Positions 12,766 to 39,218 of a stretch of 64,000 nt of DNA are shown in pieces. Every line of letters begins with the position of its first letter. The first letter of the stretch is position 1. The translations under genes and the position numbers were made by a program. The notes under the pieces are model-generated. The model was not told where the DNA came from. It made no database searches and was given only the letters and a program-made list of their open reading frames with translations. Origin of the DNA: an uncultured Actinomycetes bacterium (GTDB lineage Bacteria; Actinomycetota; Actinomycetes; Nanopelagicales; Nanopelagicaceae); assembly GCA_937876245.1 (NCBI GenBank), contig CALEGP010000034.1:1-64000 (forward strand), read 5' to 3'.

Positions 12766-13826
12766 TATTGCGATACAACCCATTGCCCATAGAACAACCC
12801 TAAGCCGGCAGCCACGCTCATCCCTGCCAAAATCCAAAATCTAATTACTATCGTGACTTCTCCCCAGCCCAATAATTCAAAGTGATGCTGAAGCGGTGCC
12901 ATCTTAAAGACTCGCCTACCACCAGATAGCTTGAAGTATCCCGTTTGAATTATTACCGAGAGAGTAATTAGAACAAAAAGTCCGCCCAGTGCGGCAAGAA
13001 GTGCTTCAACTCTTAAAACAATTGCGATTCCCGAGATGGCACCGCCAAGTGCAAGTGAACCGACATCTCCCATGAAAATTTTTGCGGGTGAAGCATTCCA
13101 CCAAAGAAATCCAGCACATGCTCCGGCTAGCGCCGCAGAAAAAACTGCCATATCTAAAGGGTCACGAACGTTATAACACTGTGCAACATCCACAATCGCG
13201 CAGCTCTGGCCAAATTTCCAAACCCCGATCACGACAAATGATAGGAAAGTCATAATGGCCGCCCCTGAAGCCAGCCCATCTAAACCATCAGTAAGGTTCA
13301 CTCCATTTGAACTGCCCAGAACTAGAAAAATAATCCAGAGAATTACAACTGCCATCCCAAGTTTAATTGAAGTGTCTCGTACTCCAGAGAAATAATACGA
13401 AATCGGCGTTAGCTGTGAGCCATCCTTGAAGTGCAGTCCAGTGTAAGCAAATCCAGTTGCGACTACTGCCTGGCCAAAGAGTTTCTGTTTTGCCGTTAGA
13501 CCAAGGGACTGCCTCTTAAATACTTTTAGAAAATCGTCCAGTAATCCGACTAGGCCAAGACCAAAAATCAATCCCATAACTAAAATCGCTGAGGCGGTGA
13601 TTCCAACTCCAGTTATCAAATGGCTAGCAAAATAGGCAGCAGTACTGGAAATAATTAGAACAATACCTCCCATTGTGGGAGTTCCGCGTTTTACGTGGTG
13701 AGTTTTTGGACCATCATCTCGAATCATCTGACCAATACCCCGGCGCGAAAGTATGCGAATAAATGCCGGAGTTAGGATTAAGCTCATAAGCAGGGAAAGT
13801 GCACCTGCGAAAACTATGCCCTTCAC
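12765..13826 (-). CDS. mraY: Phospho-N-acetylmuramoyl-pentapeptide transferase
   Basis: Transfers the MurNAc-pentapeptide phosphate to undecaprenyl phosphate, making lipid I in the membrane. The 353-residue protein has about ten membrane segments and the family motifs DDGPKTHHVKRGTPTMGG, GLLDDFLKV, SNGVNLTDGLDGLA (catalytic Asp) and FMGDVGSLALGG, with PLQHHFELLGW near the end. It lies between murF and murD in the usual order with one-to-four-base overlaps. Confidence 0.98.
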   Translation of the reverse strand: MKGIVFAGALSLLMSLILTPAFIRILSRRGIGQMIRDDGPKTHHVKRGTPTMGGIVLIISSTAAYFASHLITGVGITASAILVMGLIFGLGLVGLLDDFLKVFKRQSLGLTAKQKLFGQAVVATGFAYTGLHFKDGSQLTPISYYFSGVRDTSIKLGMAVVILWIIFLVLGSSNGVNLTDGLDGLASGAAIMTFLSFVVIGVWKFGQSCAIVDVAQCYNVRDPLDMAVFSAALAGACAGFLWWNASPAKIFMGDVGSLALGGAISGIAIVLRVEALLAALGGLFVLITLSVIIQTGYFKLSGGRRVFKMAPLQHHFELLGWGEVTIVIRFWILAGMSVAAGLGLFYGQWVVSQ

Positions 13827-15211
13827 TGAACGCTATTCCTAAGCTTCTCAAAAATCATATCGGCAAGTAAATTAAACTCTTCCAAACGAGATGCTTTAAT
13901 CAGAACGACATCACCTGGTAGAAAATGCTCGACCATCGAAAGCGCCTCGTCCCTCTCTGCAAAATAATGCAATGCGCTCTCACCTCCGTTGTCGGCCCAT
14001 TCTAAATCTTCAAGATATTCCTTGGCACCTATGAAGACCAAGTGATCTATCCCTACCTCAGTGCCGAGTCTGCCAATGGCTGAGTGCTCCTTCGCGGATG
14101 ACTCGCCGAGTTCGTGCATCTTGCCGAGAAAAGCCCAACTTACGCCGCCGGTCTCTTGTGATATCAGCGCTAGCGTGCGCAGCGCGGCCGCCATACTCTC
14201 GGGATTGGCATTGTATGAATCATTTATCAGCAATATCTCGCCGATTTCGAGGATTTCCATCCGCCACTTACTTACTACCTCTGCCGTGGAAAGCGCGGCG
14301 GAGATCGACTCAATGGGAATACTAAGGACGGTTGCAACAGCTGCTGCGGCAAGAGCATTGGAGATTTGGTGTAAGCCAAGGAGTTGCAGACCGACAGCGG
14401 CGCGGCCATTTGGGGTAACTAAATCAAAATGTGCTCTCCCTTCACGAACTTCGATATCAGCCGCACGGACTTCACTGGCTGATTTTTCGCCAAAAAGAAT
14501 TCTACGAACACCACTTGGAGTTTGCATTACTGGCGTGAACTCGTCGTAGGTACCTAAAATGGCCACTCCGCCTTCATCTAATGCAGAAATCAACTCCGAT
14601 TTAGCTTGGGCAATCATCTCGCGACTTCCGAATTCGCCAACATGGGCTTTCCCAACGCCAAGGACTACCCCTAATTGGGGCTTAGCAATTTTCGCCAGGT
14701 GCGAAATATCTCCGATGTGACGGGCGCCCATTTCCACTACACAATATTTGGTTTTTTGAGTGCACTGCAAAACTAAGAGTGGAACGCCTAGTTCGTTGTT
14801 GAGTGACTCCTTGGGAGCAACTGTCTCACCAGAGACACTTAAAATGTGGCGCAGTAAATCTTTCGTAGTGGTTTTGCCTTGAGATCCAGTTACAGCAATT
14901 ACTGTAAGGGAATCCAATTTTGTTCTAACGTGTATAGCAAGTTTCGTTAATGCAGCTAAAACGTCTTTCACTTTGATTGCCGGCATAGTGGTCTCTTTAC
15001 TAACCAATGCGAATTGCGCTCCCCTAGAAATCGCATCACTTATATAATCGTGTCCGTCAACTGTATCTCCGACAAATGCCGCAAAAAAAGTATCTTCCCT
15101 AGCCAATTTGGAATCTATAACCGCATGAGCGGACGTGACTTTGGTGCCGTCAATATTTATAACTTCACCCTCTACTATTTGAGCGATTTCATTCAATGTC
15201 ATTTTGATCAT
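13823..15211 (-). CDS. murF: UDP-MurNAc-tripeptide-D-alanyl-D-alanine ligase
   Basis: Adds D-Ala-D-Ala to complete the pentapeptide precursor. The 462 residues include an N-terminal domain binding the UDP-sugar, the ATP loop VTGSQGKTTTKDLL, the EMGARHIGDI motif, GVGKAHVGEFGS and NDSYNANPESM. The ATG at 15211 overlaps the TGA of murE (ATGA), and a second in-frame ATG lies three codons downstream. The gene overlaps mraY by 4 bases. Confidence 0.97.
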   Translation of the reverse strand: MIKMTLNEIAQIVEGEVINIDGTKVTSAHAVIDSKLAREDTFFAAFVGDTVDGHDYISDAISRGAQFALVSKETTMPAIKVKDVLAALTKLAIHVRTKLDSLTVIAVTGSQGKTTTKDLLRHILSVSGETVAPKESLNNELGVPLLVLQCTQKTKYCVVEMGARHIGDISHLAKIAKPQLGVVLGVGKAHVGEFGSREMIAQAKSELISALDEGGVAILGTYDEFTPVMQTPSGVRRILFGEKSASEVRAADIEVREGRAHFDLVTPNGRAAVGLQLLGLHQISNALAAAAVATVLSIPIESISAALSTAEVVSKWRMEILEIGEILLINDSYNANPESMAAALRTLALISQETGGVSWAFLGKMHELGESSAKEHSAIGRLGTEVGIDHLVFIGAKEYLEDLEWADNGGESALHYFAERDEALSMVEHFLPGDVVLIKASRLEEFNLLADMIFEKLRNSVQ

Positions 15212-16689
15212 GAGAGCTCCTCGATTGCACGAGCCAATTCAATTCGATCATCAAAAGGATCTTTCTTCCCTAATATTTCCTGCCCCGTTTCGTGACCTTT
15301 TCCTAATATAACTACGCAATCTCCAGGCAAAGCCGTTGCTACTGCAAGAGCAATGGCCTCACGACGATCAAGAATGATTGACTCGTTCTCTCCTAGAGAT
15401 AGACCATCTGTCATCTCAGATAAAATATCTTCGGCCCTCTCGCCTCGTGGGTTATCACTGGTGAATATTGCAAAATCAGATCCTGCGATTAGTTCTCGCC
15501 CCATTGCCGAACGTTTGGACCTATCTCTGTCGCCGCCGCACCCAAGAACTGCGATGATGCGCCCTTTCGAACTTTTGCGAAGGGTCGCTAATGTGCGAAG
15601 GACCGCATCTGGCGTATGGGCGTAGTCAACTAAGGCCAGAAACTTCTGCCCAATATTCACGCTTTCTAATCGGCCTTTCGCGCCACACAGTTGAGCCAAA
15701 CTGTTACCAATCACTAGAGGATCAATCTCAAATTCGAAAGCCATGGCAACGGCCATCAAAACATTGTCTAAGTTGTGATCGCCAATCAAATTTATTTGAC
15801 CTTCGATTAGCACACCGCCCGTGCCTCTTATCGCGACAAGATAACCCCAATCAGTTGACTCAATTCGCTCAAAATGCCATTGCGCTGAACGGTTTTCTTT
15901 CGCCAAAGAAATCACTGGGATGTCTGAGTTATTAAATAGCCTTAGGCCATAACTGTTATCGATATTCACAAAACCAAGCTCCGAGAACTGTGGTGAAAAC
16001 AACTTCGATTTCGCTTCGAAATAGGTTTCCATATCCCCATGAAAATCCAGATGATCTTGTGTCAAATTTGCGAAGCCAACAAGAGCGAATTTAGTGCCTG
16101 CCACCCTTCGTGCTTCTAGCGCATGGCTACTTACTTCCATGGCGACATGTGAGATATGGCGCTCGTGCATGATGGCAAAGAGGCTTTGCAATTCACTTGC
16201 TTCAGGAGTTGTAAAATTTGTAGCAATCTTTTCAGTGCCAATTTCAATTCCGATAGTTCCGATGAGTCCGGTAGATTTTCCCGCAAAATTCAAGATCTGG
16301 GCCAAGATAGTTGTCGTAGTTGTCTTGCCATTTGTTCCAGTAATTCCGGATATTCGTACTGACCTTGAAGGAGAGTCATAGAACCAAGAACAAATATCAC
16401 CAAGATTTCTGCGTGGCTCAGGGACAAGCATCACGGGAAGTTTTCCCGCAATGATTTCTCGACCCTGCTCATCAGTCAAGACTGCCACCGCGCCATTGTT
16501 TACAACTTGATCAATATGTGTTGCGCCATGTGTCTTTGATCCCGGCAGCGCAACAAACAGATCGCCGCTTTCCACCGCCCTCGAATCTGAAGTAATCCCC
16601 GTAATCGCAAGGTCAAGTGAAGTTTCCACGCCAATAAAATTAGCGAGCTCTGCGGCTGACTTTATGAAATCAGATATTGGTCGAATCAT
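15208..16689 (-). CDS. murE: UDP-MurNAc-tripeptide synthetase, meso-diaminopimelate type
   Basis: Adds the third stem residue to UDP-MurNAc-Ala-Glu. The 493 residues contain TSDSRAVESGDLFVALPG, the ATP loop GITGTNGKTTTTTIL, NLTQDHLDFHGDMETYF and, near the C-terminus, FTSDNPRGERAEDI. The DNPR motif marks enzymes specific for meso-diaminopimelate, so the wall is predicted to be DAP-type. GKGHETGQEI closes the C-terminal domain. Both ends overlap neighbours by 4 bases. Confidence 0.97.
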   Translation of the reverse strand: MIRPISDFIKSAAELANFIGVETSLDLAITGITSDSRAVESGDLFVALPGSKTHGATHIDQVVNNGAVAVLTDEQGREIIAGKLPVMLVPEPRRNLGDICSWFYDSPSRSVRISGITGTNGKTTTTTILAQILNFAGKSTGLIGTIGIEIGTEKIATNFTTPEASELQSLFAIMHERHISHVAMEVSSHALEARRVAGTKFALVGFANLTQDHLDFHGDMETYFEAKSKLFSPQFSELGFVNIDNSYGLRLFNNSDIPVISLAKENRSAQWHFERIESTDWGYLVAIRGTGGVLIEGQINLIGDHNLDNVLMAVAMAFEFEIDPLVIGNSLAQLCGAKGRLESVNIGQKFLALVDYAHTPDAVLRTLATLRKSSKGRIIAVLGCGGDRDRSKRSAMGRELIAGSDFAIFTSDNPRGERAEDILSEMTDGLSLGENESIILDRREAIALAVATALPGDCVVILGKGHETGQEILGKKDPFDDRIELARAIEELS

Positions 16690-28938: not shown

Positions 28939-29424
28939 ATGGAAAACATCCGGCAAAATGCTTCAGTTCAGCGGGTATTGGTGAAACTTCGGGAGCATGA
29001 CATAACTGGTGAAGTAAGAGTTCTCTCAGAGAGTGCACGTACTGCTCAAGAAGCAGCTGATGCGCTCGGAATCTTGGTTGGACAAGTTGCATCCTCGATT
29101 GTTTTCAAACTTGATGATGACTCCCCGCTATTAGTGATCACAAGTGGTCGGCACCGCGTTGACACAGCTTTAGTAGCCAAGAATTTAGGTCAAGAAAAAT
29201 TGCACCGCGTTGATGCTGATTACGTGAAAAATAGATCAGGTTTCTCAATTGGTGGCGTGAGTCCACTGGCGTGGATTCAACCCGTAACAGCCATCATCGA
29301 TGAGGCGCTAAATGATTACGAAGTCGTCTGGGCCGCAGCTGGCCACCCACACGCGGTTTATCAGACGACTTTTGCCGAGTTATTGGAATGCACGAGCGCA
29401 AAGCCAATGGTGGTTGGTGAATGA
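28939..29424 (+). CDS. YbaK/ProX-type aminoacyl-tRNA deacylase
   Basis: A 161-residue protein of the YbaK/EbsC family, free-standing relatives of the ProRS editing domain. Motifs SARTAQEAADALG, VGQVASSIVFK and the GGVSPL loop are visible. These proteins hydrolyse mischarged tRNAs such as Cys-tRNA-Pro or Ala-tRNA-Pro. It begins 14 bases after arsC and overlaps the next hydrolase gene by 4 bases, so it is probably co-transcribed with the carotenoid genes downstream without an evident functional link. Confidence 0.87.
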   Translation: MENIRQNASVQRVLVKLREHDITGEVRVLSESARTAQEAADALGILVGQVASSIVFKLDDDSPLLVITSGRHRVDTALVAKNLGQEKLHRVDADYVKNRSGFSIGGVSPLAWIQPVTAIIDEALNDYEVVWAAAGHPHAVYQTTFAELLECTSAKPMVVGE

Positions 29425-30212
29425 ATAAGCCAAAGCTTGCCTACCAATCCCCTAGTTCGAGTGAGGCTATTGTTTTAATTCATGGCCTTGGCTCTGCTGC
29501 AACTGCATGGAAACCAATTGTTCCAAAGTTAGAATGTAAATTTAAAGTAATAACTCTTGATCTCCCTGGTCATGGAAACGCTGACCGAGTTGATCACAAA
29601 TCACTCGAGCCAGAAGTGTTAGCAAAATTAGTTTTTGATTTAATGGATGAGAACGGTGTCGAAAAATTTAATTTAGTTGGCAATTCTCTTGGCGGCTGGG
29701 TCGCACTTGAAATGGCGGCGATGAAACCAGACCGAGTGAAATCACTTGTTGGTCTTGCGCCTGCTGGGCTTTGGCACAATCCAGCAACAACTCGAGCTAG
29801 ATATGCGCTCTCTAAAGTAGCAGCCGATAGTTTTAAAAATATTGCGCCACAACTCCTGAAATCTGGGCTTATGCGCAAAATAGGTTTTGGACCATTTACT
29901 CCAAATTGGGCAAATTTGGATCTCGAGATTTGCGTAGATGCTGTTCAAGCGCTTGGAAATTGCCATGGGTACTACCACACGTGGGATGCGATGTTGCATC
30001 ATAGATTTGATAAAACAATTCCGACAAGCGTCCCGACCACAATAATCTTTGGTGATTCTGATTGGACGCTACCGATTGAAAATTCACAGGAGCGTTCGTT
30101 GGCCCCGGCGCACTGCAAATGGATTGTGCTTCCAGTTTGTGGACATGCTCCGATGTGGGATCGACCAGATGAAGTTGTATCTGAAATATTTGCAGCAGCT
30201 GGTATCTCTTAA
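29421..30212 (+). CDS. Alpha/beta hydrolase
   Basis: A 263-residue alpha/beta-hydrolase fold enzyme. The oxyanion region is HGLGSAATAW, the nucleophile is in GNSLGGWVA, the acid is probably in FGDSDW and the histidine in VCGHAPMWDRP. The substrate is unknown. The stop overlaps the start of the CrtA-like gene as TAATG, so the two are translationally coupled. A role in carotenoid ester or precursor handling is possible but is only inferred from position. Confidence 0.85.
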   Translation: MNKPKLAYQSPSSSEAIVLIHGLGSAATAWKPIVPKLECKFKVITLDLPGHGNADRVDHKSLEPEVLAKLVFDLMDENGVEKFNLVGNSLGGWVALEMAAMKPDRVKSLVGLAPAGLWHNPATTRARYALSKVAADSFKNIAPQLLKSGLMRKIGFGPFTPNWANLDLEICVDAVQALGNCHGYYHTWDAMLHHRFDKTIPTSVPTTIIFGDSDWTLPIENSQERSLAPAHCKWIVLPVCGHAPMWDRPDEVVSEIFAAAGIS

Positions 30213-30880
30213 TGATCGTTCTGGTTTATTTCTGGAAGATAAACCTTCGTTCTCTTCCAATTGCAATTCTGCATATGGCCTTTGATAGGTTTTTTCTTAA
30301 GCGCAACAAAAAAATAACTTTCTTTAAATCACTTGGCACTGGCAGAGGCGAAACTTTCACGCCAAGCGATGCAGATTTCACTCGCTGGGGCCTAATAGTT
30401 GTATTGCCAAATTCTGAGATCGAGCTCTTTGATTCTTCACCTTTAATTTCGCTCTGGCGACGTCTGGCTGTATCCGAATATCGTGGAATACTGCAGCCAA
30501 TCTCAACGCATGGCGCCTGGGCCAAGCGTTCACCATTTAACGAAAACTTAATCAGTGGTTGGGATGGCCCGGTGGCGGCAATTACCAGAGCTCGCATTAA
30601 GTGGTGGATGAATCCTAAATTTTGGAGCGCAGTTCCACCCGTAACTACAAGTCTTAAATCTGCTACAGGTTTGAACAGCGCGATAGGAATAGGCGAAGCT
30701 CCGATTGGCCTACAGGGAACTTTTTCTAGATGGGACTCAATGTCAGCACTGAGAGCATTTGCCTATGGCCAAGGCCCACACTCGAAAGCAATTACGATGA
30801 CTGAAGAGCTAGATTGGTACGTAGAGGAGCTATTTGCCCGCTTTGCAATTATTAGCGAGCATGGCGAGATAAAGCGATAA
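30212..30880 (+). CDS. crtA: CrtA-like spheroidene monooxygenase family protein
   Basis: A 222-residue protein with the features of the CrtA family: SLGTGRGETFTP (about 42-53), ITRARIK, IGIGEAPIGLQGTFSRW and the C-terminal block AFAYGQGPHSKAI with WYVEELFARF. CrtA enzymes add oxygen at C-2 of acyclic carotenoids such as spheroidene, giving keto groups. Here it is followed by hydratase, glycosyltransferase and desaturase genes, so an acyclic carotenoid is the likely substrate. The actual product is unknown. Confidence 0.82.
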   Translation: MIVLVYFWKINLRSLPIAILHMAFDRFFLKRNKKITFFKSLGTGRGETFTPSDADFTRWGLIVVLPNSEIELFDSSPLISLWRRLAVSEYRGILQPISTHGAWAKRSPFNENLISGWDGPVAAITRARIKWWMNPKFWSAVPPVTTSLKSATGLNSAIGIGEAPIGLQGTFSRWDSMSALRAFAYGQGPHSKAITMTEELDWYVEELFARFAIISEHGEIKR

Positions 30881-30898
30881 GTAAGGCAGAATCAGGCC

Positions 30899-31714
30899 AT
30901 GTCGATCCGCCAATATCGCCCGAGACGCAATCGGCGTGATGGAATTACGACAAAGCAAAATATCGCCCTCCTTGCTCTATTTATTTTCGCCATTGGCTGC
31001 CAGATCAGCTACCCATTAATTTCCGGTGATCTACTTCGGTATGTAACAATTTTAACGGTTATTTCGGGTGCGATAGTTATGTTGTTTCATTCTCTTCTAT
31101 CTTATGGCTTCAGATATTTCGTAACTTTCCTTCTCGTAACATTTTCCTACTCGCTACTCATAGAGATAATTGGAAATAAATCTGGTTGGCCATTTGGTTC
31201 CTACGCTTACGATGACTCGCTGGGGTTTCAAATTGCCGGTGTGCCTGCGGTTGTCCCCCTTGCTTGGATAATGATGTCTCATCCGGTTTTAATTGCCGCG
31301 CGTAAAACAATTCCAACTTGGGCATTTCTCTATGGCGGGATTGGACTTACAGCTTGGGATTTATTTTTAGATCCTCAAATGGTTGCTGCCGGAAGATGGA
31401 GCTGGAATTCCGTTGAGCCTCACGTTCCCCTGGAACCAACTATCCCCCTTTCAAACACTGCCGGTTGGCTTTTGACCGGTATTGGCCTAATGGCCCTACT
31501 CAATTTCGTTCTACCAAAGGAGCGCCGAAAAGCTGGAGTCAACTCAACGATTCCTAATATATTCCTGGGTTGGACGCTATTTTCCGGAATCATTGGCAAT
31601 GTATTCTTTTTCGACCAGCCCGGAGTTGCCATAATTGGCGGTGCTGTTTTCCTGCTCTGGTTGGCGCCGTATCTCTTGGTTCTCTCATTTGGTAAGCCGG
31701 ATTTATTCAAGTAA
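30899..31714 (+). CDS. cruF: CruF-like carotenoid 1,2-hydratase (membrane)
   Basis: A 271-residue membrane protein with about seven hydrophobic segments and the signature motifs of the CruF/bisanhydrobacterioruberin hydratase family: NKSGWPFGSYAYDD, VPAVVPLAWIMMSHP and WDLFLDPQMVAAGRWSW. CruF adds water to the psi end of lycopene-like carotenoids (1'-hydroxylation). It is 18 bases after the CrtA-like gene, and its stop directly abuts the glycosyltransferase start. Confidence 0.9.
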   Translation: MSIRQYRPRRNRRDGITTKQNIALLALFIFAIGCQISYPLISGDLLRYVTILTVISGAIVMLFHSLLSYGFRYFVTFLLVTFSYSLLIEIIGNKSGWPFGSYAYDDSLGFQIAGVPAVVPLAWIMMSHPVLIAARKTIPTWAFLYGGIGLTAWDLFLDPQMVAAGRWSWNSVEPHVPLEPTIPLSNTAGWLLTGIGLMALLNFVLPKERRKAGVNSTIPNIFLGWTLFSGIIGNVFFFDQPGVAIIGGAVFLLWLAPYLLVLSFGKPDLFK

Positions 31715-32761
31715 ATGATTGTATTTTGGCTAAGCGCAATCGCACTCATAATCACGACCTGGAATGTCATTTCGATGAGGGTTGTTGGACTAAAAGGTGC
31801 CAAATTTGTATCTGATTCGGTCGACATCCTTATTCCGATGCGAAACGAGCAGACCAATGCTGAAGGGTCTCTTAAATCACTTCTTAACTCCGAGTTGCTT
31901 GAAAATTCAGAGATCTATGCGTTGGACGATTGCTCTATAGACGAAACAGCCAACTTAATTAAGACTTTTAATGTTAATTTTATTTCGGGGTCAGATATTC
32001 CAAAAGGCTGGCTTGGTAAAACTTGGGCATGTCACTGCCTAGCAAAGGCTGGATCTGGAGAATATCTTGCCTTCATTGATGCGGACGTACGTCTTCATCC
32101 ATATGCAATTTCTTCGGCTATTTCGACAATGCAAGGCCTTAGTTGGGATTATATTTCACCCTATCCAAAACAGTTGGCCGGAACTTTTCTCGAAAAATTA
32201 ATACAACCACTATTGCAATGGTCATGGATTGCCAGTGTCCCACTTCGCTTGGCTGAGAAATTTCCCAATCGTGCGATGACTATTGCCAATGGCCAATTTT
32301 TTATTGTGAAGCGAAGCGCATATGAAGCTATTGGCGGACACCAATCAATTTCCGGAGAAATATTGGAGGACTTAGAACTTGCCAGACTTCTTACTTCGAA
32401 GGGCTTTAAAGGTGGTCTCGCCGAAGCAAGTTCCGTTGCCAGCTGTCGGATGTATGAAAGCAGTCAAGAATTAATCGATGGCTATACGAAGTCTTTATGG
32501 CGAGCTTTCGGAGGAAGTATGGGAACAATCGTTGCTATTTTCCTACTTCTTGCTACTGGTATTGCCCCATACCTAAGTATCGGAGCCCCTTCGTTATTCA
32601 TATTCCTATCCAGATCACTTTCAGCGTTAAAAACTAAGTCAAATCCGGCATTTGCTTTTTTACATCCAATCTCGATTCTTGTCTTACTCTATTTAATTGG
32701 TTTATCGGCCATTAGAAAACAACATGGAACTTTGCAATGGCGTGGACGGTTGATTCCCTAG
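31715..32761 (+). CDS. cruG: Family 2 glycosyltransferase, CruG-like
   Basis: A 348-residue membrane-attached GT2 enzyme with an N-terminal anchor, the nucleotide-binding start DILIPMRNEQ, ALDDCSID, the DxD in AFIDADVRL and GWLGKTWACHCLA, which is typical of carotenoid glycosyltransferases of the CruG/CrtQ group, plus C-terminal membrane helices. Coming directly after CruF, it is predicted to glycosylate the hydroxyl that CruF creates, as CruG does for myxol. Sugar identity is unknown. Confidence 0.82.
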   Translation: MIVFWLSAIALIITTWNVISMRVVGLKGAKFVSDSVDILIPMRNEQTNAEGSLKSLLNSELLENSEIYALDDCSIDETANLIKTFNVNFISGSDIPKGWLGKTWACHCLAKAGSGEYLAFIDADVRLHPYAISSAISTMQGLSWDYISPYPKQLAGTFLEKLIQPLLQWSWIASVPLRLAEKFPNRAMTIANGQFFIVKRSAYEAIGGHQSISGEILEDLELARLLTSKGFKGGLAEASSVASCRMYESSQELIDGYTKSLWRAFGGSMGTIVAIFLLLATGIAPYLSIGAPSLFIFLSRSLSALKTKSNPAFAFLHPISILVLLYLIGLSAIRKQHGTLQWRGRLIP

Positions 32762-34261
32762 ATGAGCAAGGTCATTGTTATCGGGGCAGGCATGGCTGGC
32801 ATGGCCACTGCTGCCAGACTTGCAAAAGCTGGGCACAGGGTCACAATTTTCGAGCGAAGCAATTTGACCGGAGGAAAATGTCGAACCGAGTTGATTGGAG
32901 ATTATGCCTTCGACACCGGACCCTCACTTCTAACTTTGCCAGCTGTATATCGTGATCTATTCCTAAAAACTGGAAAACGTATTGAACATATTCTAAAAAT
33001 AAATCCTGTAGATCCCGCATTTGTATATAACTTTGCTGATAAGACAAAGATAGCATTTCCAAATCTTTCACCAGGTGAAGTTAGCCGCTCTATCGAATCA
33101 ACTTTAGGTCCTGATGCAGCTAATGAATGGCATAACTTAATGCAACGTGCCGAACATATGTGGGACGTTTCCCGCGGGCCATTTGTTGAATCCGAACTTA
33201 AATCAATCGCTTCGCTAGCTAGACGTAAGAATCTGATATCCGATCTGCGTACAATCTCCCCCTTTATGTCACTTCGTTCACTTACTTCTAAGTACACAAA
33301 AAATCCCTATTTGAGTGCGATTGTTGATCGTTACGCAACTTATTCAGGATCAGATCCTAGAAAAGTTCCAGCAGTTCTGCTTACGATCGCATTTGTAGAA
33401 TCTGCTTTCGGCGCATGGCATATAGAGGGCGGAATTGGTCAACTTGCTATTGCACTTGACGAGAGATGTCGCAAACTAGGAGTTGAAATTTTACTAAATA
33501 GCGAAGTTTCTAAAATAACTTTTGAGGCAAATTCGGCAACTGGGGTTGTGGTTGGAGGTGAGACTTACGCCGCTGATTTTATTGTAGCTAATGCTGATGC
33601 CGAAATTGTTTACAAGAAATTGCTTCCACCAAAATTACGAGTTGTTAAGGCTGAGCGAAAAAAGATGGCGAAAGCTACAAAGTCGCTGGCTGGCTTTACC
33701 CTTCTTCTCGGTTTAGACAATAGTAGAGTCTCCAATCCGCCACCGAAATTGCCACACCATTCAATCTATTTTCCGCGCGATTACGATGCCGAATTTGATG
33801 ATATTTTTATTAGAAAAATTCCGGTCCAGGATCCGACAATTTATATCTGCTCTCCAGATGATTCCAAAATGGCCAAGGCAAATAAGGAAGCGTGGTCTGT
33901 CCTAATAAATGCCCCGAGGCATGAAGCGGTAGGCGGTTGGGACTGGCGTAAAGAGCCTGAAAAATACGCAAAGCAAATAATTAGCAAACTCGATGCCCTA
34001 GGACTTAGAGTTTCAGAACGGTTAGATGTCATGGAGTTTAGAACACCTTATGATCTAGAAAATTCAGTAGCTGCGCCAGGTGGATCGATTTATGGGACTT
34101 CGAGCAATGGTGCCAAATCGGCTTTTCTGCGAGCCAAAAATTCCTCGCCTTTAAAGAATCTATATTGCGTTGGTGGCTCGGCACATCCTGGTGGTGGACT
34201 TCCGCTCGTTGCCATTAGCGCAGAAATTGTTTCCGATGCAATTGCTCGTGCTAATCTTTAA
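32762..34261 (+). CDS. crtD: CrtI-family carotenoid desaturase, probably CrtD-type
   Basis: A 499-residue flavoprotein with an N-terminal FAD loop VIVIGAGMAGMATAARLAKAG, the phytoene desaturase pattern DTGPSLLTLP and a C-terminal GGSAHPGGGLPLVA. It belongs to the CrtI/CrtD/CrtN family. Because a second copy adjacent to crtB (36834) is the better crtI candidate and this one follows hydratase and glycosyltransferase genes, 3,4-desaturation of a hydroxylated end (CrtD) is the best guess. It ends 11 bases inside the convergent phosphatidyltransferase gene. Confidence 0.8.
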   Translation: MSKVIVIGAGMAGMATAARLAKAGHRVTIFERSNLTGGKCRTELIGDYAFDTGPSLLTLPAVYRDLFLKTGKRIEHILKINPVDPAFVYNFADKTKIAFPNLSPGEVSRSIESTLGPDAANEWHNLMQRAEHMWDVSRGPFVESELKSIASLARRKNLISDLRTISPFMSLRSLTSKYTKNPYLSAIVDRYATYSGSDPRKVPAVLLTIAFVESAFGAWHIEGGIGQLAIALDERCRKLGVEILLNSEVSKITFEANSATGVVVGGETYAADFIVANADAEIVYKKLLPPKLRVVKAERKKMAKATKSLAGFTLLLGLDNSRVSNPPPKLPHHSIYFPRDYDAEFDDIFIRKIPVQDPTIYICSPDDSKMAKANKEAWSVLINAPRHEAVGGWDWRKEPEKYAKQIISKLDALGLRVSERLDVMEFRTPYDLENSVAAPGGSIYGTSSNGAKSAFLRAKNSSPLKNLYCVGGSAHPGGGLPLVAISAEIVSDAIARANL

Positions 34262-34871
34262 AACGCCGGTAAGAATTAAAAGTCAGCTGAAATAGGGCTA
34301 TTGACTGAAACAGCGCCCAGATTACGGTAATTATCGTAATCCAATTAAGTTGCAGGATATTTGCAATAATGGCGATAAAGATAAAGCTGGCGCGTATTGG
34401 ACGCTCTCCAATCGTTATGATTCCAAGTTCACCGTGGCCCAGTCCTGCCGACCTAGCACGGAGATATTCTTGAGTAAATGCAAAGATGGATGCGATAAGT
34501 ATGAATTGAACTGGCGCACCCAGCCTATATAGGGCAAGTGCCCAAAAGACTTCTGAGATTCGGTCCGCAAATGAATCGAGGAAAGCGCCAAATTTTGATG
34601 TACGTTGCAGAACAACAGCTAGTGAACCGTCTATCCCATCAAAGAATAGGGAGAGAGTTAAAAAAAGCGCAGCAGACCAATGGTAGGGAAATATCGAAAG
34701 CGCGATGGCGCAAAGTAGACCAGCGCTCGTTAACATAGCTGGGGTGATGTGAATTCTCGCCATAGGTTTAACTAGTGCGAAGGAAATCCTCAACCAAATT
34801 TTAACTATCCCTGTTATTTCTGCGCCGCCGTGAAGTTTTGACCAGGTTGCAAAGAATTCAGATTTAAGCAC
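34251..34871 (-). CDS. CDP-alcohol phosphatidyltransferase family protein
   Basis: An integral membrane enzyme, about 206 residues from the GTG at 34871, which overlaps the metF stop and has GGAAG upstream. The catalytic motif reads DGIDGSLAVVLQRTSKFG then AFLDSFAD. All the metal-binding Asp and Gly of the D-x2-D-G-x2-A-R motif are kept, but the Arg after Ala is Val, as in a recognised actinobacterial subgroup. It should transfer a phosphatidyl or related group from a CDP-lipid to an unknown alcohol. Coupling to metF is translational, not functional as far as can be seen. Confidence 0.83.
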   Translation of the reverse strand: MLKSEFFATWSKLHGGAEITGIVKIWLRISFALVKPMARIHITPAMLTSAGLLCAIALSIFPYHWSAALFLTLSLFFDGIDGSLAVVLQRTSKFGAFLDSFADRISEVFWALALYRLGAPVQFILIASIFAFTQEYLRARSAGLGHGELGIITIGERPIRASFIFIAIIANILQLNWITIITVIWALFQSIALFQLTFNSYRRFKD

Positions 34872-35721
34872 GTTCTTCCAAACTAAGATTTCTGTATATT
34901 TCCAAGGTCGCATCGGCGCTATTCATTGTATAAAAATGCAGTCCAGGAACCTTCAATGAGATCAACTCAGTGCAAAGCTGAGTTGCCAGCTCCACGCCCG
35001 CCGCACGTACCGCTTCTGAATCTTGAGCAATGCTCTGAAATCTTTCATTAATCTCTCTGGGTATTGGAGTTCCGCTCAACTCGGCCATCCGATGCAGTTG
35101 TTTCACATTTGTAATCGGCAATATTCCTGCGATCACAGGCAGTCTCGAGCCCCGAACTTCCAATCTGGAAACGAGGTCTTGCCACTTGCTGCTATCAAAA
35201 AAGAATTGCGTCGTCGCGAAACTAGCTCCGAGTTGCTCTTTTCGAAGCAAGACCTCGACATCTTTTTCAAAATCGCCATTACTGGCTGGATGGCCGTCGG
35301 GAAATGCGGCGACTCCAACGCTAAAGACGCCAACTTTCATTGCTAGTTCAACAAGTTGATCAGAATGATCAAAACCCCCAGGCGTTGACATCCAAGTTGC
35401 AGTCGGACCTTCAGTTGGATCGCCCCTAAGTGCCAAAATACTTTTAATTCCTGCTTCTTTATATTGCTTTAGAATTTCCATTAATTCTTCTTCAGTAGAG
35501 CCAACACACGTTAGATGGGCAACAGTATTTATCCCCGTTCGCTCCGTTATTTCTTTGGTGATTCTAATTGTGCGATCTCTTGTACTGCCACCAGCCCCAT
35601 AAGTGACAGAGATAAAATCAGGCTTAATTGCCTTAACTGCCGTGGTTGCTTCCCAAAGTCGCGCCTCTCCAGCCTCGTCTTTTGGTGGGAAAAACTCCAC
35701 TGAAACCGAGATGCTTCCCAT
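34864..35721 (-). CDS. metF: Methylenetetrahydrofolate reductase
   Basis: Reduces 5,10-methylene-THF to 5-methyl-THF for methionine synthesis. The 285-residue TIM-barrel flavoprotein has the catalytic Glu in VSVEFFPPKDE, VTYGAGGSTRDRT, HLTCVGST, LALRGDP and FFFDSS. It diverges from crtE with only 24 bases between start codons. A -10-like TAGCCT lies 8 bases before the ATG, so the message would be nearly leaderless. Confidence 0.96.
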   Translation of the reverse strand: MGSISVSVEFFPPKDEAGEARLWEATTAVKAIKPDFISVTYGAGGSTRDRTIRITKEITERTGINTVAHLTCVGSTEEELMEILKQYKEAGIKSILALRGDPTEGPTATWMSTPGGFDHSDQLVELAMKVGVFSVGVAAFPDGHPASNGDFEKDVEVLLRKEQLGASFATTQFFFDSSKWQDLVSRLEVRGSRLPVIAGILPITNVKQLHRMAELSGTPIPREINERFQSIAQDSEAVRAAGVELATQLCTELISLKVPGLHFYTMNSADATLEIYRNLSLEERA

Positions 35722-35745
35722 AGCGAGTCAGGCTACCCTTACGAA
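35722..35745. promoter_or_regulatory. 24-bp divergent promoter between metF and crtE
   Basis: Both start codons are 24 bases apart, so both promoters must lie here or inside the opposite gene. On the plus strand TACCCT (35734-35739) is exactly six bases before the crtE GTG. On the minus strand TAGCCT (35730-35735) is eight bases before the metF ATG. The two -10 boxes overlap, so the promoters probably compete. Confidence 0.55.
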
Positions 35746-36819
35746 GTGATTTTTTCAGTTAACTCAGAGTTAAATGAGATTCGAGATGGAATCAACGGTG
35801 AACTTCTCAAATTCATTGCCCGAGAGAATCAGTATCTAAGAGAAATCGGATCAGAGTTAGTTCCAGTGGCTGTTGCAATGGAACGCTTTCTTCTTGATAC
35901 CGGAAAACGTCTGCGCCCCCTCTTTGCCTATGTTGGTTTTCTTGGTTCTGGGGCGGCTCCAAAAATTGAAATCTTGCATTCTTGTGCTGCCCTGGAACTA
36001 ATACACGTCTGCGCTTTAATACATGACGATGTTATGGATGGTTCTGATACCCGCCGAGGCGCACCCTCAATACATAAAGCATTCGAAGCAATGCATATGA
36101 AAGAGAAGATGTCTGGTTCAGCGCAACAATTTGGAATTTCTGCCGCAATACTTTTGGGTGATTTGGCCCTTGTCTGGTCAGCAAAGATGTTGCACCAAGC
36201 CGGGCTTGGTGAAAGTGAATTGGTCCGGTCTCTGCCGATGTATGACGAAATGAGAGTTGAGCTTATGGCTGGGCAATACTTAGATATTTTTGAACAGGCC
36301 TTGGGAAGTCAGTCCGTCGAGCGTTCTTTGAAAGTTGCCAGATATAAATCTGGGAAATACACAATCGAGCGACCGCTGCATTTCGGAGCTGCGCTAGGTG
36401 GCGGCAAGCCCAAGTTATTTGAAACTTATTCAGAGTATGGATTGCCCCTTGGTGAGGCTTTTCAACTTCGCGATGACATTCTTGGAATTTTTGGTGACCC
36501 GAGTGAAACCGGAAAGCCCGCTGGCGATGACCTTCGAGAAGGAAAAAGAACTGTTCTCCTGGCAAAGACTATGGAACTTGCAGATGAGAAGTCCAAGCTT
36601 GTAATTGAATCGACGCTAGGTAATCCAAAAATGAACTCCGAAGAACTTTCTAAAGTTCAAGAAATCATCACTAACACAGGTGCTTTAGCCCAAGTTGAGG
36701 AGCTAATCGATTCACTAACTTTCAGTGCGCAATCTGCGCTCGACCGTGGTGAGATTAAGCCACTCTCCAAGCAAGCTCTAGCGAAGTTGATCACAATCGT
36801 TACCCGGAGAACTCTTTAA
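35746..36819 (+). CDS. crtE: Geranylgeranyl diphosphate synthase-type polyprenyl synthase
   Basis: A 357-residue trans-prenyltransferase with LRPLFAY, the first aspartate-rich motif HDDVMDGSD and the second QLRDDILGIFGDP. It makes the C20 precursor for phytoene. The gene is followed by crtI and crtB, which supports GGPP as product. The start is GTG at 35746 and appears leaderless (TACCCT six bases upstream). It opens the second carotenoid transcription unit. Confidence 0.92.
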   Translation: MIFSVNSELNEIRDGINGELLKFIARENQYLREIGSELVPVAVAMERFLLDTGKRLRPLFAYVGFLGSGAAPKIEILHSCAALELIHVCALIHDDVMDGSDTRRGAPSIHKAFEAMHMKEKMSGSAQQFGISAAILLGDLALVWSAKMLHQAGLGESELVRSLPMYDEMRVELMAGQYLDIFEQALGSQSVERSLKVARYKSGKYTIERPLHFGAALGGGKPKLFETYSEYGLPLGEAFQLRDDILGIFGDPSETGKPAGDDLREGKRTVLLAKTMELADEKSKLVIESTLGNPKMNSEELSKVQEIITNTGALAQVEELIDSLTFSAQSALDRGEIKPLSKQALAKLITIVTRRTL

Positions 36820-36833
36820 GAATTGGAAGTCTG

Positions 36834-38318
36834 ATGCCAGCTCGTGTTAAAGGTCCGACTGATCATGTAGTCATCGTCGGAGCAGGACTAGGTGGTCTGA
36901 GCGCAGCACTTCGCTTGGCTGGAGCTGGTCGAAAAGTTACAGTCATAGAACGTGAAAGTGTGCCCGGTGGGCGAAATGGTTTATTAAATAAAGATGGTTA
37001 TTCGTTTGATACGGGCCCAACTGTTTTGACAATGCCAGATTTAATTCAAGATGCCTTTTCTTGCGTTGGTGAAGAGCTCAAAGACTGGCTTGAACTTCTT
37101 CCACTAAAACCCCTGTACCGGGCTTTCTTTCATGACGGCTCAACGCTCGATGTACATGCAGAGACTGGGCGAATGCAAGAAGAGATCCGTAATGTAATTG
37201 GTGCCCAAGAGGCGGCAGGTTATGGCCGCTATGTAGATTTTGTAACCAAGCTTTATAAGTTGGAAATGAATGATTTTATTGACCGCAACATAGATTCTCC
37301 GCTCAATCTTTTGACACCAAACCTGGCACGACTAGTAGCGCTAGGCGGCTTTCGCCGGCTTGCACCAAAAGTTAATCAATTTCTAAAGGATCCACGTACT
37401 CAAAAAGTTTATTCATTTCAAGCGATGTATGCCGGCGTCAGTCCTCAGCAAGCGCTAGCCCTTTATGCCGTTATTGCATACATGGATTCAGTAAATGGCG
37501 TCTTCTTTCCTAAGGGTGGAATGCACGCTCTGCCTCGTGCACTTGCGGGCGCAGCAGCGAAACATGGCGTCGATTTTAGGTACAACCAAACGGTTACAAC
37601 CGTCGAACATTCCGGGGGTAGGGCACGGGCCGTAATTACCAAAGATGGTGACCGGATAGCCTGTGATGCCCTAATTTTAAATCCCGATTTACCAGTAGCT
37701 TGGCGAGAATTACTTGGTGAAACACCAAGGTCTATTAAACGGCTTAATTATTCGCCATCTTGCGTTACTTTACTTATCGGTTCTAGTAAAAGTTATGATC
37801 GCTTAGCCCATCACAATATTCACTTTGGTGAATCTTGGAATGGAGTCTTTGACGAACTGATCAACAAGAAAAGGTTTATGTCTGACCCAAGTTTGCTTGT
37901 CACCGTACCTACCAAAGATGACAGAAATTTAGCCCCCAACGGAAAACACTCATATTACGTACTCTTCCCGACGCCAAATTTATCTGCCGATATTGACTGG
38001 AAAGCCCAAGGCGCTAAATATCGTGACCAGATGATAAGTACTATGGAAAAGCGCGGATATGACGACTTCAGTAGTTCAATTGAAGTGGAACAGATGACAA
38101 CACCGCTCGATTGGCAAGCCCAAGGCATGGAGCAAGGGGCGCCATTTGCCAGCGCACATACCTTCTTTCAAACCGGCCCATTCCGACCCCGCAATATGGC
38201 AAAAGGCTTCGAGAATGTTGTATTTACCGGTTCAGGGACTCAACCCGGAGTTGGTGTACCGATGGTTCTAATTTCTGGCCGCCTTGCTGCTGAACGAATC
38301 GTTGGTACCGTTAAATAA
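36834..38318 (+). CDS. crtI: Phytoene desaturase
   Basis: A 494-residue FAD enzyme with HVVIVGAGLGGLSAALRLAGAG at the N-terminus, SFDTGPTVLTMPDLI, FPKGGMHALPRAL and a C-terminal GSGTQPGVGVPMVLISG. It should carry out the successive desaturations of phytoene to lycopene. It starts 14 bases after crtE behind GGAAG and is directly followed by crtB. It is a different subfamily from the desaturase at 32762, and this one is the standard CrtI by context. Confidence 0.93.
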   Translation: MPARVKGPTDHVVIVGAGLGGLSAALRLAGAGRKVTVIERESVPGGRNGLLNKDGYSFDTGPTVLTMPDLIQDAFSCVGEELKDWLELLPLKPLYRAFFHDGSTLDVHAETGRMQEEIRNVIGAQEAAGYGRYVDFVTKLYKLEMNDFIDRNIDSPLNLLTPNLARLVALGGFRRLAPKVNQFLKDPRTQKVYSFQAMYAGVSPQQALALYAVIAYMDSVNGVFFPKGGMHALPRALAGAAAKHGVDFRYNQTVTTVEHSGGRARAVITKDGDRIACDALILNPDLPVAWRELLGETPRSIKRLNYSPSCVTLLIGSSKSYDRLAHHNIHFGESWNGVFDELINKKRFMSDPSLLVTVPTKDDRNLAPNGKHSYYVLFPTPNLSADIDWKAQGAKYRDQMISTMEKRGYDDFSSSIEVEQMTTPLDWQAQGMEQGAPFASAHTFFQTGPFRPRNMAKGFENVVFTGSGTQPGVGVPMVLISGRLAAERIVGTVK

Positions 38319-39218
38319 ATGGATGAGTTAACTGCCGCGGGAATAACCGACCCACTTCTTCGTGCCTCTTACGAAGAGTGCAAGAGGCTCAATTCCAGAC
38401 ATGGAAAAACTTATTATTTGGCGACACTTCTACTCCCTCCAGGAAAACGACCATTTGTCCATGCGCTATATGGATTTGCTCGATATGCCGACGAAATTGT
38501 TGATGACCTAGCCTCAGAACTCACTCCTGAGGAGAAGGCCATAGAGCTAACTACATGGGGCAATAAGAGAATATTGGATATCAAGAATGGCGCGAGCTCT
38601 GATCATATTGGTCGAGCCCTAGTAGATACTGTCACTCGGTTTAATATTCCTATTAAGTATTTTGAGGCATTTCTGCGTTCGATGGCCATGGATTTATACA
38701 TTAACGAATATCAAAGTTTTGATGACCTAATGGAATATGTCTATGGTTCGGCTTCGGTAATCGGTTTGCAGATGCTTCCAATTCTTGAGGCCTACTCTCC
38801 TGAAAGCCAAGTGGCAGCCGAAAAACTAGGAACCGCATTTCAGTTAGCAAATTTTATCCGCGATGTTGGCGAGGACTTAGATCGTGGGCGAATCTACCTA
38901 CCCATAGATGAGTTGCAAGCACATGGTGTTACCAGAGAAACCCTCGAAGCCCGAGTCGTTACGCCAGAAATTAGGTCACTCCTTAAAGCGCAGATTGCCA
39001 GAGTTAGGCAATTACAGAGTGAGGCTGAGCCGGGAATTAAATTATTGGCCCCAAATTCCCAAGCTTGTATTGAGGTTGCCAATGAACTGTACTGCGGGAT
39101 CGTCGATGAGGTAGAAAAAATCGATTTTGAAATATTTGAACGCCGGGCTAAAACTTCAAATTGGCGGCGAATCAAGGTTGCCTTTCCGGCGCTGTTGCGG
39201 GCGAAAAAAACTCGCTAG
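38319..39218 (+). CDS. crtB: Phytoene synthase
   Basis: Joins two GGPP to make phytoene. The 299-residue squalene/phytoene synthase has YGFARYADEIVDDLA (first Asp-rich motif), YVYGSASVIGLQMLPIL, and AFQLANFIRDVGEDLDRGRI (second motif with DxGED). It starts right after the crtI stop. No lycopene cyclase gene follows; the next gene is a thiamine transporter behind its own riboswitch. Confidence 0.95.
   Translation: MDELTAAGITDPLLRASYEECKRLNSRHGKTYYLATLLLPPGKRPFVHALYGFARYADEIVDDLASELTPEEKAIELTTWGNKRILDIKNGASSDHIGRALVDTVTRFNIPIKYFEAFLRSMAMDLYINEYQSFDDLMEYVYGSASVIGLQMLPILEAYSPESQVAAEKLGTAFQLANFIRDVGEDLDRGRIYLPIDELQAHGVTRETLEARVVTPEIRSLLKAQIARVRQLQSEAEPGIKLLAPNSQACIEVANELYCGIVDEVEKIDFEIFERRAKTSNWRRIKVAFPALLRAKKTR

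Follow-up and report, generated by a model that had tools for sequence, protein, structure and literature searches.

A conserved actinobacterial carotenoid cassette with a predicted one-ringed glycoside product, and CruF kept where carotenoid synthesis seems lost

We analyzed a carotenoid gene cluster in a 64,000-base stretch of DNA (the window; bases 1–64,000 of contig C34) from a Nanopelagicales genome (G000; 1.52 Mb, 39 contigs, 99.99% complete). The cluster is real, belongs to a cassette conserved in this one order of small-genome, probably freshwater, actinobacteria, and is ordinary in kind. Its genes probably make a one-ringed glycoside of a known type, resembling deoxymyxol and sioxanthin. 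In the predicted pathway, CrtE, CrtB and CrtI would lead to lycopene, and CrtYc and CrtYd, encoded elsewhere in the genome, would close one beta ring. At the open end, CruF would hydrate C-1',2', CrtD would insert a 3',4' double bond, and a CrtA-type haem oxygenase would add a 2'-hydroxyl; a family 2 glycosyltransferase (GT2) would attach a sugar, to the 1'-oxygen more likely than to the 2'. We expect a deoxymyxol-type monoglycoside as product, sioxanthin-like but beta-ringed. We infer each of these catalytic steps, together with the number of rings, the hydroxyl in place of a keto group, the haem, and the position and kind of the sugar. One side observation stands unexplained, the retention of CruF in genomes where carotenoid synthesis seems lost.

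Results

All open reading frames (ORFs) listed in an earlier note on this DNA were recovered at the same positions, and its description of CrtA-like, CruF, GT2 and CrtI-family genes in one run, followed by crtE-crtI-crtB, agrees with both the ORFs and the family assignments. Six genes, ybaK-abh-crtA-cruF-GT2-crtD, are spaced by 0–18 bases or overlap by at most 4 bases. The 222-amino acid CrtA-like protein (30212–30880, forward strand, as are all genes of the cluster named in this paragraph) matched the spheroidene monooxygenase model NF045923 (E = 4e-44, residues 11–219, 150.6 bits), confirming the family membership that had been put up for checking. This score is half of the 300-bit equivalog cut-off, which none of the 296 genomes of the order reached. 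The protein had no Pfam match at E 0.01 and a single match among PDB sequences (E 0.59). The product of cruF (30899–31714) belongs to the carotenoid 1',2'-hydratase family (PF04240; 1.4e-33, 117.1 bits, cut-off 25) and scored 66.4 of 400 bits on the equivalog for gamma-carotene hydratase and 103.3 of 154.7 bits on that for bisanhydrobacterioruberin hydratase (TIGR03460). The GT2 gene (31715–32761), whose translation contains GWLGKTWACHCLA, matched PF00535 (5.3e-15) and had CruG as its top NCBIfam model (NF045692; 9.7e-29, 100.5 bits, cut-off 600). The crtD-like gene (32762–34261) encodes a CrtI-family protein, a candidate 1'-hydroxycarotenoid 3',4'-desaturase, with 302.6 bits on TIGR02734 (cut-off 238.1) and CrtD as the top model (NF045637; 323.8 bits, cut-off 580). 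Further downstream lie genes for a CrtE-like polyprenyl diphosphate synthase (35746–36819; PF00348, 6.2e-51), the phytoene desaturase CrtI (36834–38318; TIGR02734, 517.9 bits, cut-off 238.1) and the phytoene synthase CrtB (38319–39218; PF00494, 3.3e-68). Family matches of such strength are not chance, and at family level they support the earlier proposal that tailoring is likely to include 1'-hydration, 3',4'-desaturation and glycosylation.

The earlier note had also described the cluster as lacking a cyclase. Neither PF05834 nor PF18916 gave a match on contig C34, but a CrtYc-CrtYd pair was found on another contig of the same genome (G000:C33:15507-15770 and 15818-16090). Both ORFs matched PF18916 above its cut-off and TIGR03462 with 56.4 and 58.6 bits (cut-off 39.4), so that the lycopene cyclase of a deoxymyxol-type pathway is present in the genome as CrtYc plus CrtYd. 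A classical CrtY/CrtL was rejected as a candidate in this genome, where PF05834 gave just two matches below its cut-off, both on contig C16. Contig C16 also carries two divergent, overlapping ORFs (L152, 12493–14088 and 14061–15701) with CrtO as the top NCBIfam model (178 and 208 bits, cut-off 1000).

We then considered 112 genomes of the order with at least 90% completeness. CrtYcd genes occur in 108 of them and rhodopsin in 89, with the rhodopsin-negative genomes G271, G273 and G277 identified by subtraction; the search for blh (beta-carotene dioxygenase family) was positive in 52 and in no control genome. Two rhodopsin searches, the first of them positive in no control, and the blh search found neither gene in the window genome. 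CrtYcd persists in 56 of the 60 genomes that lack blh and is missing from the other 4. The cyclase lies within 12 kb of cruF in at least 35 of the 60 and elsewhere in 21, including the window genome, mostly on other contigs, where linkage is often undecidable. Over all 112 genomes, this proximity to cruF holds for at least 50, at least 35 of them without blh. For the 52 genomes with blh, among the matches listed, the pair lies within 3 kb of blh only in 36, in both places in 13 and near cruF only in 2, while 1 has no listed place; the cyclase pair thereby adjoins blh (within 3 kb) in 49 of the 52. The cyclase goes often with retinal synthesis in blh genomes and often with this cluster in the others. 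Seventeen genomes that lack rhodopsin retain CrtA, so the pigment would not be only a rhodopsin antenna. Sixteen of these 17 keep CrtYcd, and 14 of the 16, including the window genome, also lack blh, so the ring there would not be for retinal; most simply, it serves the product of this cluster. The cross-count of rhodopsin, blh and CrtYcd rules out that the cyclase is kept for retinal alone in all genomes.

In addition, crtYcYd adjoins crtB in 15 of the 19 order loci that show about 1 kb or more past crtB (window included), a share biased by the choice of loci, which were picked partly by cyclase position, hence the recount over 112 genomes. At least four CrtYcd-type matches occurred in 22 of the 112 (e.g., G056, G060 and G061), 21 of these with blh. 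In G035, a single-contig genome of the same family, rhodopsin is present and blh was not found. Actinorhodopsin was reported in all four acI strains of one study, and complete retinal synthesis in tribes A1 and A4 only (PMC5301498; here and below, statements from sources cited by PMC number, and from Klassen 2010, cover the available parts of those papers).

We next analyzed the distribution of CrtA. A CrtA family match is present in 255 of the 296 order genomes (101 of 108 of the better ones), at odds with the earlier view of CrtA as typical of purple bacteria. On cross-reading, 7 of the 112 better genomes were CrtA-negative, and two of these negatives arise at a contig edge: contig C77 of G238 opens with the final 31 residues of crtA, and cruF of G266 begins at base 66 of its contig. 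At a visible locus, crtA is cleanly absent in five genomes (G264, G271, G267, G268 and G277), all of genus g12 and all without rhodopsin. A Fisher test of CrtA against rhodopsin (p = 0.00025) includes the two edge cases as well as closely related genomes, and we give it no weight. A genome scan for CrtA relatives confirmed 590 among at least 596 candidate stretches. The best 80 of these 590, ranked against a Deinococcus protein and hence not a random sample, included 29 Actinomycetota and 48 Bacteroidota; a set of 30 sequences (A2) combined the window with 29 of these loci.

In a 105-row CrtA tree built by a quick method, the 19 order sequences formed one group (97, starred), joined by five from Geodermatophilaceae (99, starred). 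Four alphaproteobacterial rows, being 4 of 8 found and annotated as spheroidene monooxygenase, formed a distant group (100, starred) set with Bacteroidota by unstarred forks. Twelve alignment positions distinguish these four rows, but they were picked for doing so and carry no weight here. The Nonlabens hydroxylase CrtA-OH falls outside the 80 loci, and the tree holds no biochemically characterised hydroxylase. The window CrtA shares 31.4–34.7% identity with eight plasmid-borne alphaproteobacterial proteins (tblastn); CrtA of purple and other phototrophic alphaproteobacteria is of the same protein family and of a separate clade. We rejected a purple-bacterial origin, as in this tree the CrtA of the order groups with Geodermatophilaceae, outside the alphaproteobacterial clade. 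Around the Geodermatophilaceae genes themselves (L119, L122, L135, L140 and L143), no carotenoid gene was detected in the flanking sequence retrieved.

Outside the order, 30 actinobacterial CrtA loci were searched with neighbour profiles trained on the order, some of their contigs ending early: GT2 was found in 24, cruF or crtD in 21, and GT2 with either in 20. Of the 48 Bacteroidota loci, 1 had cruF or crtD. The Nonomuraea, Streptosporangium and Actinomadura loci (L072, L074 and L075) carry cruF, crtD, GT2 and crtA on one strand and crtB-crtI on the other. A locus in an Acidimicrobiales metagenome-assembled genome (MAG; L102) has cruF-crtD-GT2-crtA next to CrtYcd and a CrtZ-like (PF04116) gene, as does its sister locus (L132), and in a Flavobacteriales MAG (L131) crtA lies near crtD-cruF-crtY and a CrtZ-like gene. 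The set had been called a mosaic in the earlier note; because its genes stay together across the order and comparable sets recur in other actinobacterial orders, it is a conserved actinobacterial cassette and no mosaic of this genome.

This distribution bears on a two-ended product, in which both ends would be tailored to an oscillol-like acyclic 1,2-diol (di)glycoside and CrtYcYd would serve a separate synthesis of beta-carotene. Cyclase genes were found by the CrtYc/CrtYd profiles in 2 of the 30 loci, against 21 with crtA beside cruF or crtD, and in 36 blh genomes the sole listed pair is beside blh. Such enzymes can act on both psi ends, at least in a purple-bacterial case (PMC10604819). However, the CrtYc/CrtYd profiles miss CrtY/CrtL-type cyclases, a cyclase could sit beyond the flanks, and the proximity of CrtYcd to cruF in many order genomes, with and without blh, points the other way. 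We consider a two-ended product unlikely.

The AlphaFold model of the window CrtA (pLDDT 93.2) had aldoxime dehydratase as its closest fold (Z 14.4 over 209 residues, root-mean-square deviation (rmsd) 3.3), a likeness in fold only, with 9% identity. A second structural family matched with Z 9.9 over about 100 residues; Foldseek rows ranked above the aldoxime dehydratases had low TM-scores and an rmsd near 16. Aldoxime dehydratase is a haem enzyme. Residue H190 is invariant in all 105 aligned CrtA rows, and a haem dependence of CrtA would fit both this histidine and the predicted fold. The flavobacterial enzyme CrtA-OH is a hydroxylase acting at C-2 of the psi end (PMC11855829). For the purple-bacterial ketolase, an origin from a CrtA-OH-like hydroxylase and a 5-coordinated haem in the ketolase have been proposed (PMC10604819; PMC2889829). 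Tree and neighbours prefer a hydroxylase to a ketolase, and we therefore favour the window CrtA as a putative haem-dependent psi-end C-2' hydroxylase of the CrtA-OH type; a 2-oxo group is possible and less likely than a 2'-hydroxyl.

The acyclic end product proposed in the earlier note, with a 1'-O-sugar, a 3',4' double bond and, from CrtA acting as a ketolase, a 2-oxo group, is improbable. The CrtA family match, the absence of a cyclase match on the contig of the window and the 2-keto groups made by purple-bacterial CrtA (PMC10604819) would accord with it. Against it stand the cyclase in the genome, its retention in nearly all order genomes without blh, and the position of the order CrtA outside the alphaproteobacterial clade, a clade with only four rows in the tree.

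The one-ringed glycoside has close counterparts. Lycopene-producing E. coli carrying Nonlabens crtY, cruF, crtD and crtA-OH formed deoxymyxol (PMC11855829). The flavobacterial myxol/deoxymyxol pathway (Nonlabens spongiae, strain P99-3; PMC11855829) has CrtB, CrtI, CruF, CrtD, CrtA-OH and a lycopene cyclase in common with the window genome, a likeness in gene set; the cyclase here is CrtYc/CrtYd instead of CrtY, and GT2 is extra. Unlike the Nonlabens pathway, the window genome gave no CrtZ-like PF04116 match in a search positive in 2 of 14 controls. A described actinobacterial product with the sugar, the hydroxyl and the 3',4' bond also exists, contrary to the earlier note: sioxanthin of Salinispora bears a 1'-O-glucosyl group, a 2'-hydroxyl and a 3',4'-didehydro bond (PMC8469146). 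Its open end has the pattern predicted here, and its ring is an aromatic phi ring.

As to the position of the sugar, crtA is missing in G264 and G271, where abh is followed at once by cruF, and both genomes keep cruF, GT2, crtD and CrtYcd. The two are sisters, which makes this a single crtA-loss event. With cruF-GT2-crtD-crtYcd kept in the absence of crtA, the sugar step seems independent of the 2'-oxygen.

The alpha/beta hydrolase gene abh (29421–30212, forward strand; Abhydrolase_1, 4.1e-24) shares 4 bases with ybaK and 1 base with crtA. The earlier note had suggested that this coupled hydrolase may be part of the pathway. The coupling is common, as abh adjoins crtA in 15 of the 19 order loci in which the upstream side is seen (window included), yet the genes are separable: crtA occurs without abh in the other 4, and abh stays in all 5 loci in which crtA is cleanly absent. 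An obligate CrtA-abh pair was therefore rejected.

PF04240 (CruF) was present in 112 of the 112 order genomes, including three, G267, G268 and G277, in which no PF00494 phytoene/squalene synthase was found (12 genomes searched, the other 9 positive). The same three had no CrtI-family match above cut-off, giving short N-terminal matches of at most 34.3 bits. At each of the three loci, all contiguous, the gene order is abh-cruF-metF-crtE, and crtA, GT2, crtD, cdpOH, crtI, crtB and crtYcYd gave no match there; the contig of G277 ends about 2.9 kb after crtE. In them, abh and cruF lie side by side (L147, 9378–11016; L148, 11659–13319; L149, 12030–13862). In L148, a methyltransferase gene (13316–14164; ArsM/UbiE-like, top NCBIfam score 58 bits, far under the cut-offs) overlaps the start of abh.

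In the tree G267 pairs with G268 (100/100), and grouping G277 with them was rejected (approximately unbiased (AU) test, p = 0.0012; 12 genomes, three genes); a tree without CruF likewise separates them, with weaker forks. Because these genomes do not form one clade, parsimony implies at least two losses, cruF and abh staying each time. Between G267 and G268, cruF is full length, with synonymous sites near saturation (pS 0.79), pN 0.19 and pN/pS 0.24; in four carotenoid-bearing genome pairs this ratio was 0.08–0.31. Provided that G267 and G268 diverged after the loss, near-saturated pS and full-length cruF make a recent loss with slow decay unlikely. CruF scored 75.6–103.2 bits on TIGR03460 in the three genomes, lower in G267 and G268, against 103.3 in the window.

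These data raise the possibility, which we regard as tentative, that CruF and abh form a carotenoid-independent unit within the cluster, the other genes tailoring the carotenoid, or that CruF does both, so that this explanation overlaps with the one-ringed glycoside. Just as tentatively, CruF, together with the hydrolase, may act outside carotenoid synthesis on another isoprenoid, may have survived at least two losses of the C40 pathway, and may also tailor, or formerly have tailored, the carotenoid of its neighbours. The universal presence of CruF, the recurrence of the same locus in genomes that are not one clade and the intact gene despite saturation favour such a role, as does the control Methanosarcina acetivorans, in which PF04240 is present and PF00494 was not found. 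On the other hand, the three are draft genomes of one genus, 92–95% complete, a foreign carotenoid may be taken up, and the lower CruF scores of G267 and G268 fit drift as well as a new role.

Between crtD and crtE, 34251–35721 holds two inverted genes, as in most fetched order loci: a CDP-alcohol phosphatidyltransferase gene (cdpOH, 34251–34913, reverse strand; PF01066, 2.1e-13), a neighbour conserved by synteny that we do not count as part of the pathway, and an opposite-strand gene, metF-like as judged by translation alone. These two occupy the roughly 1.5 kb upstream of crtE. metF was not detected in some fetched order loci, and cdpOH is gone wherever the carotenoid genes are gone.

Discussion

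Several points weigh against the one-ringed glycoside as the product. CrtYcYd-type pairs can also give bicyclic or epsilon-ringed carotenoids. CrtA, CruF, the CruG-like GT2 and CrtD all score below their equivalog cut-offs, so the exact reactions may differ from those of the modelled enzymes. The cyclase pair of the window genome is linked to neither blh nor cruF; in the 36 blh genomes with no pair listed near cruF the cyclase may serve retinal alone, and the recount over 112 genomes weakened the linkage of cyclase and cruF. Retention of CruF without phytoene synthase means that CruF may act not, or not only, in this pathway. The top GT2 model, CruG, is a 2'-O-transferase, which argues for a 2'-O-sugar, and the two CrtO-like proteins of contig C16 could introduce a 4-keto group, unless they are oxidoreductases of another kind. 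CrtA, finally, is able to act as both ketolase and hydroxylase (PMC5822342).

The cluster itself has probably been noticed already. A 2018 paper by Dwulit-Smith et al. in Applied and Environmental Microbiology (AEM) reportedly describes a secondary "complex carotenoid" branch in all acI clades with no structure given; presumably these are the same genes in the same lineage. In the general survey of Klassen (2010), crtA, cruF and cruG are treated together. The open-licence literature searched yielded neither the corrected product prediction nor the CruF retention, and nothing on hydroxyflexixanthin in Hymenobacter.

In freshwater lakes, acI is one of the most abundant groups of bacteria (PMC5301498). 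If, as is probable, the order studied here is acI, no structure for its xanthophyll came up in the open-licence literature searched, and the corrected prediction of one ring, a 2'-hydroxyl and a sugar is testable by liquid chromatography-mass spectrometry (LC-MS). The three genomes that keep CruF and abh without a phytoene synthase, in turn, make a carotenoid-independent role of PF04240 proteins directly testable.

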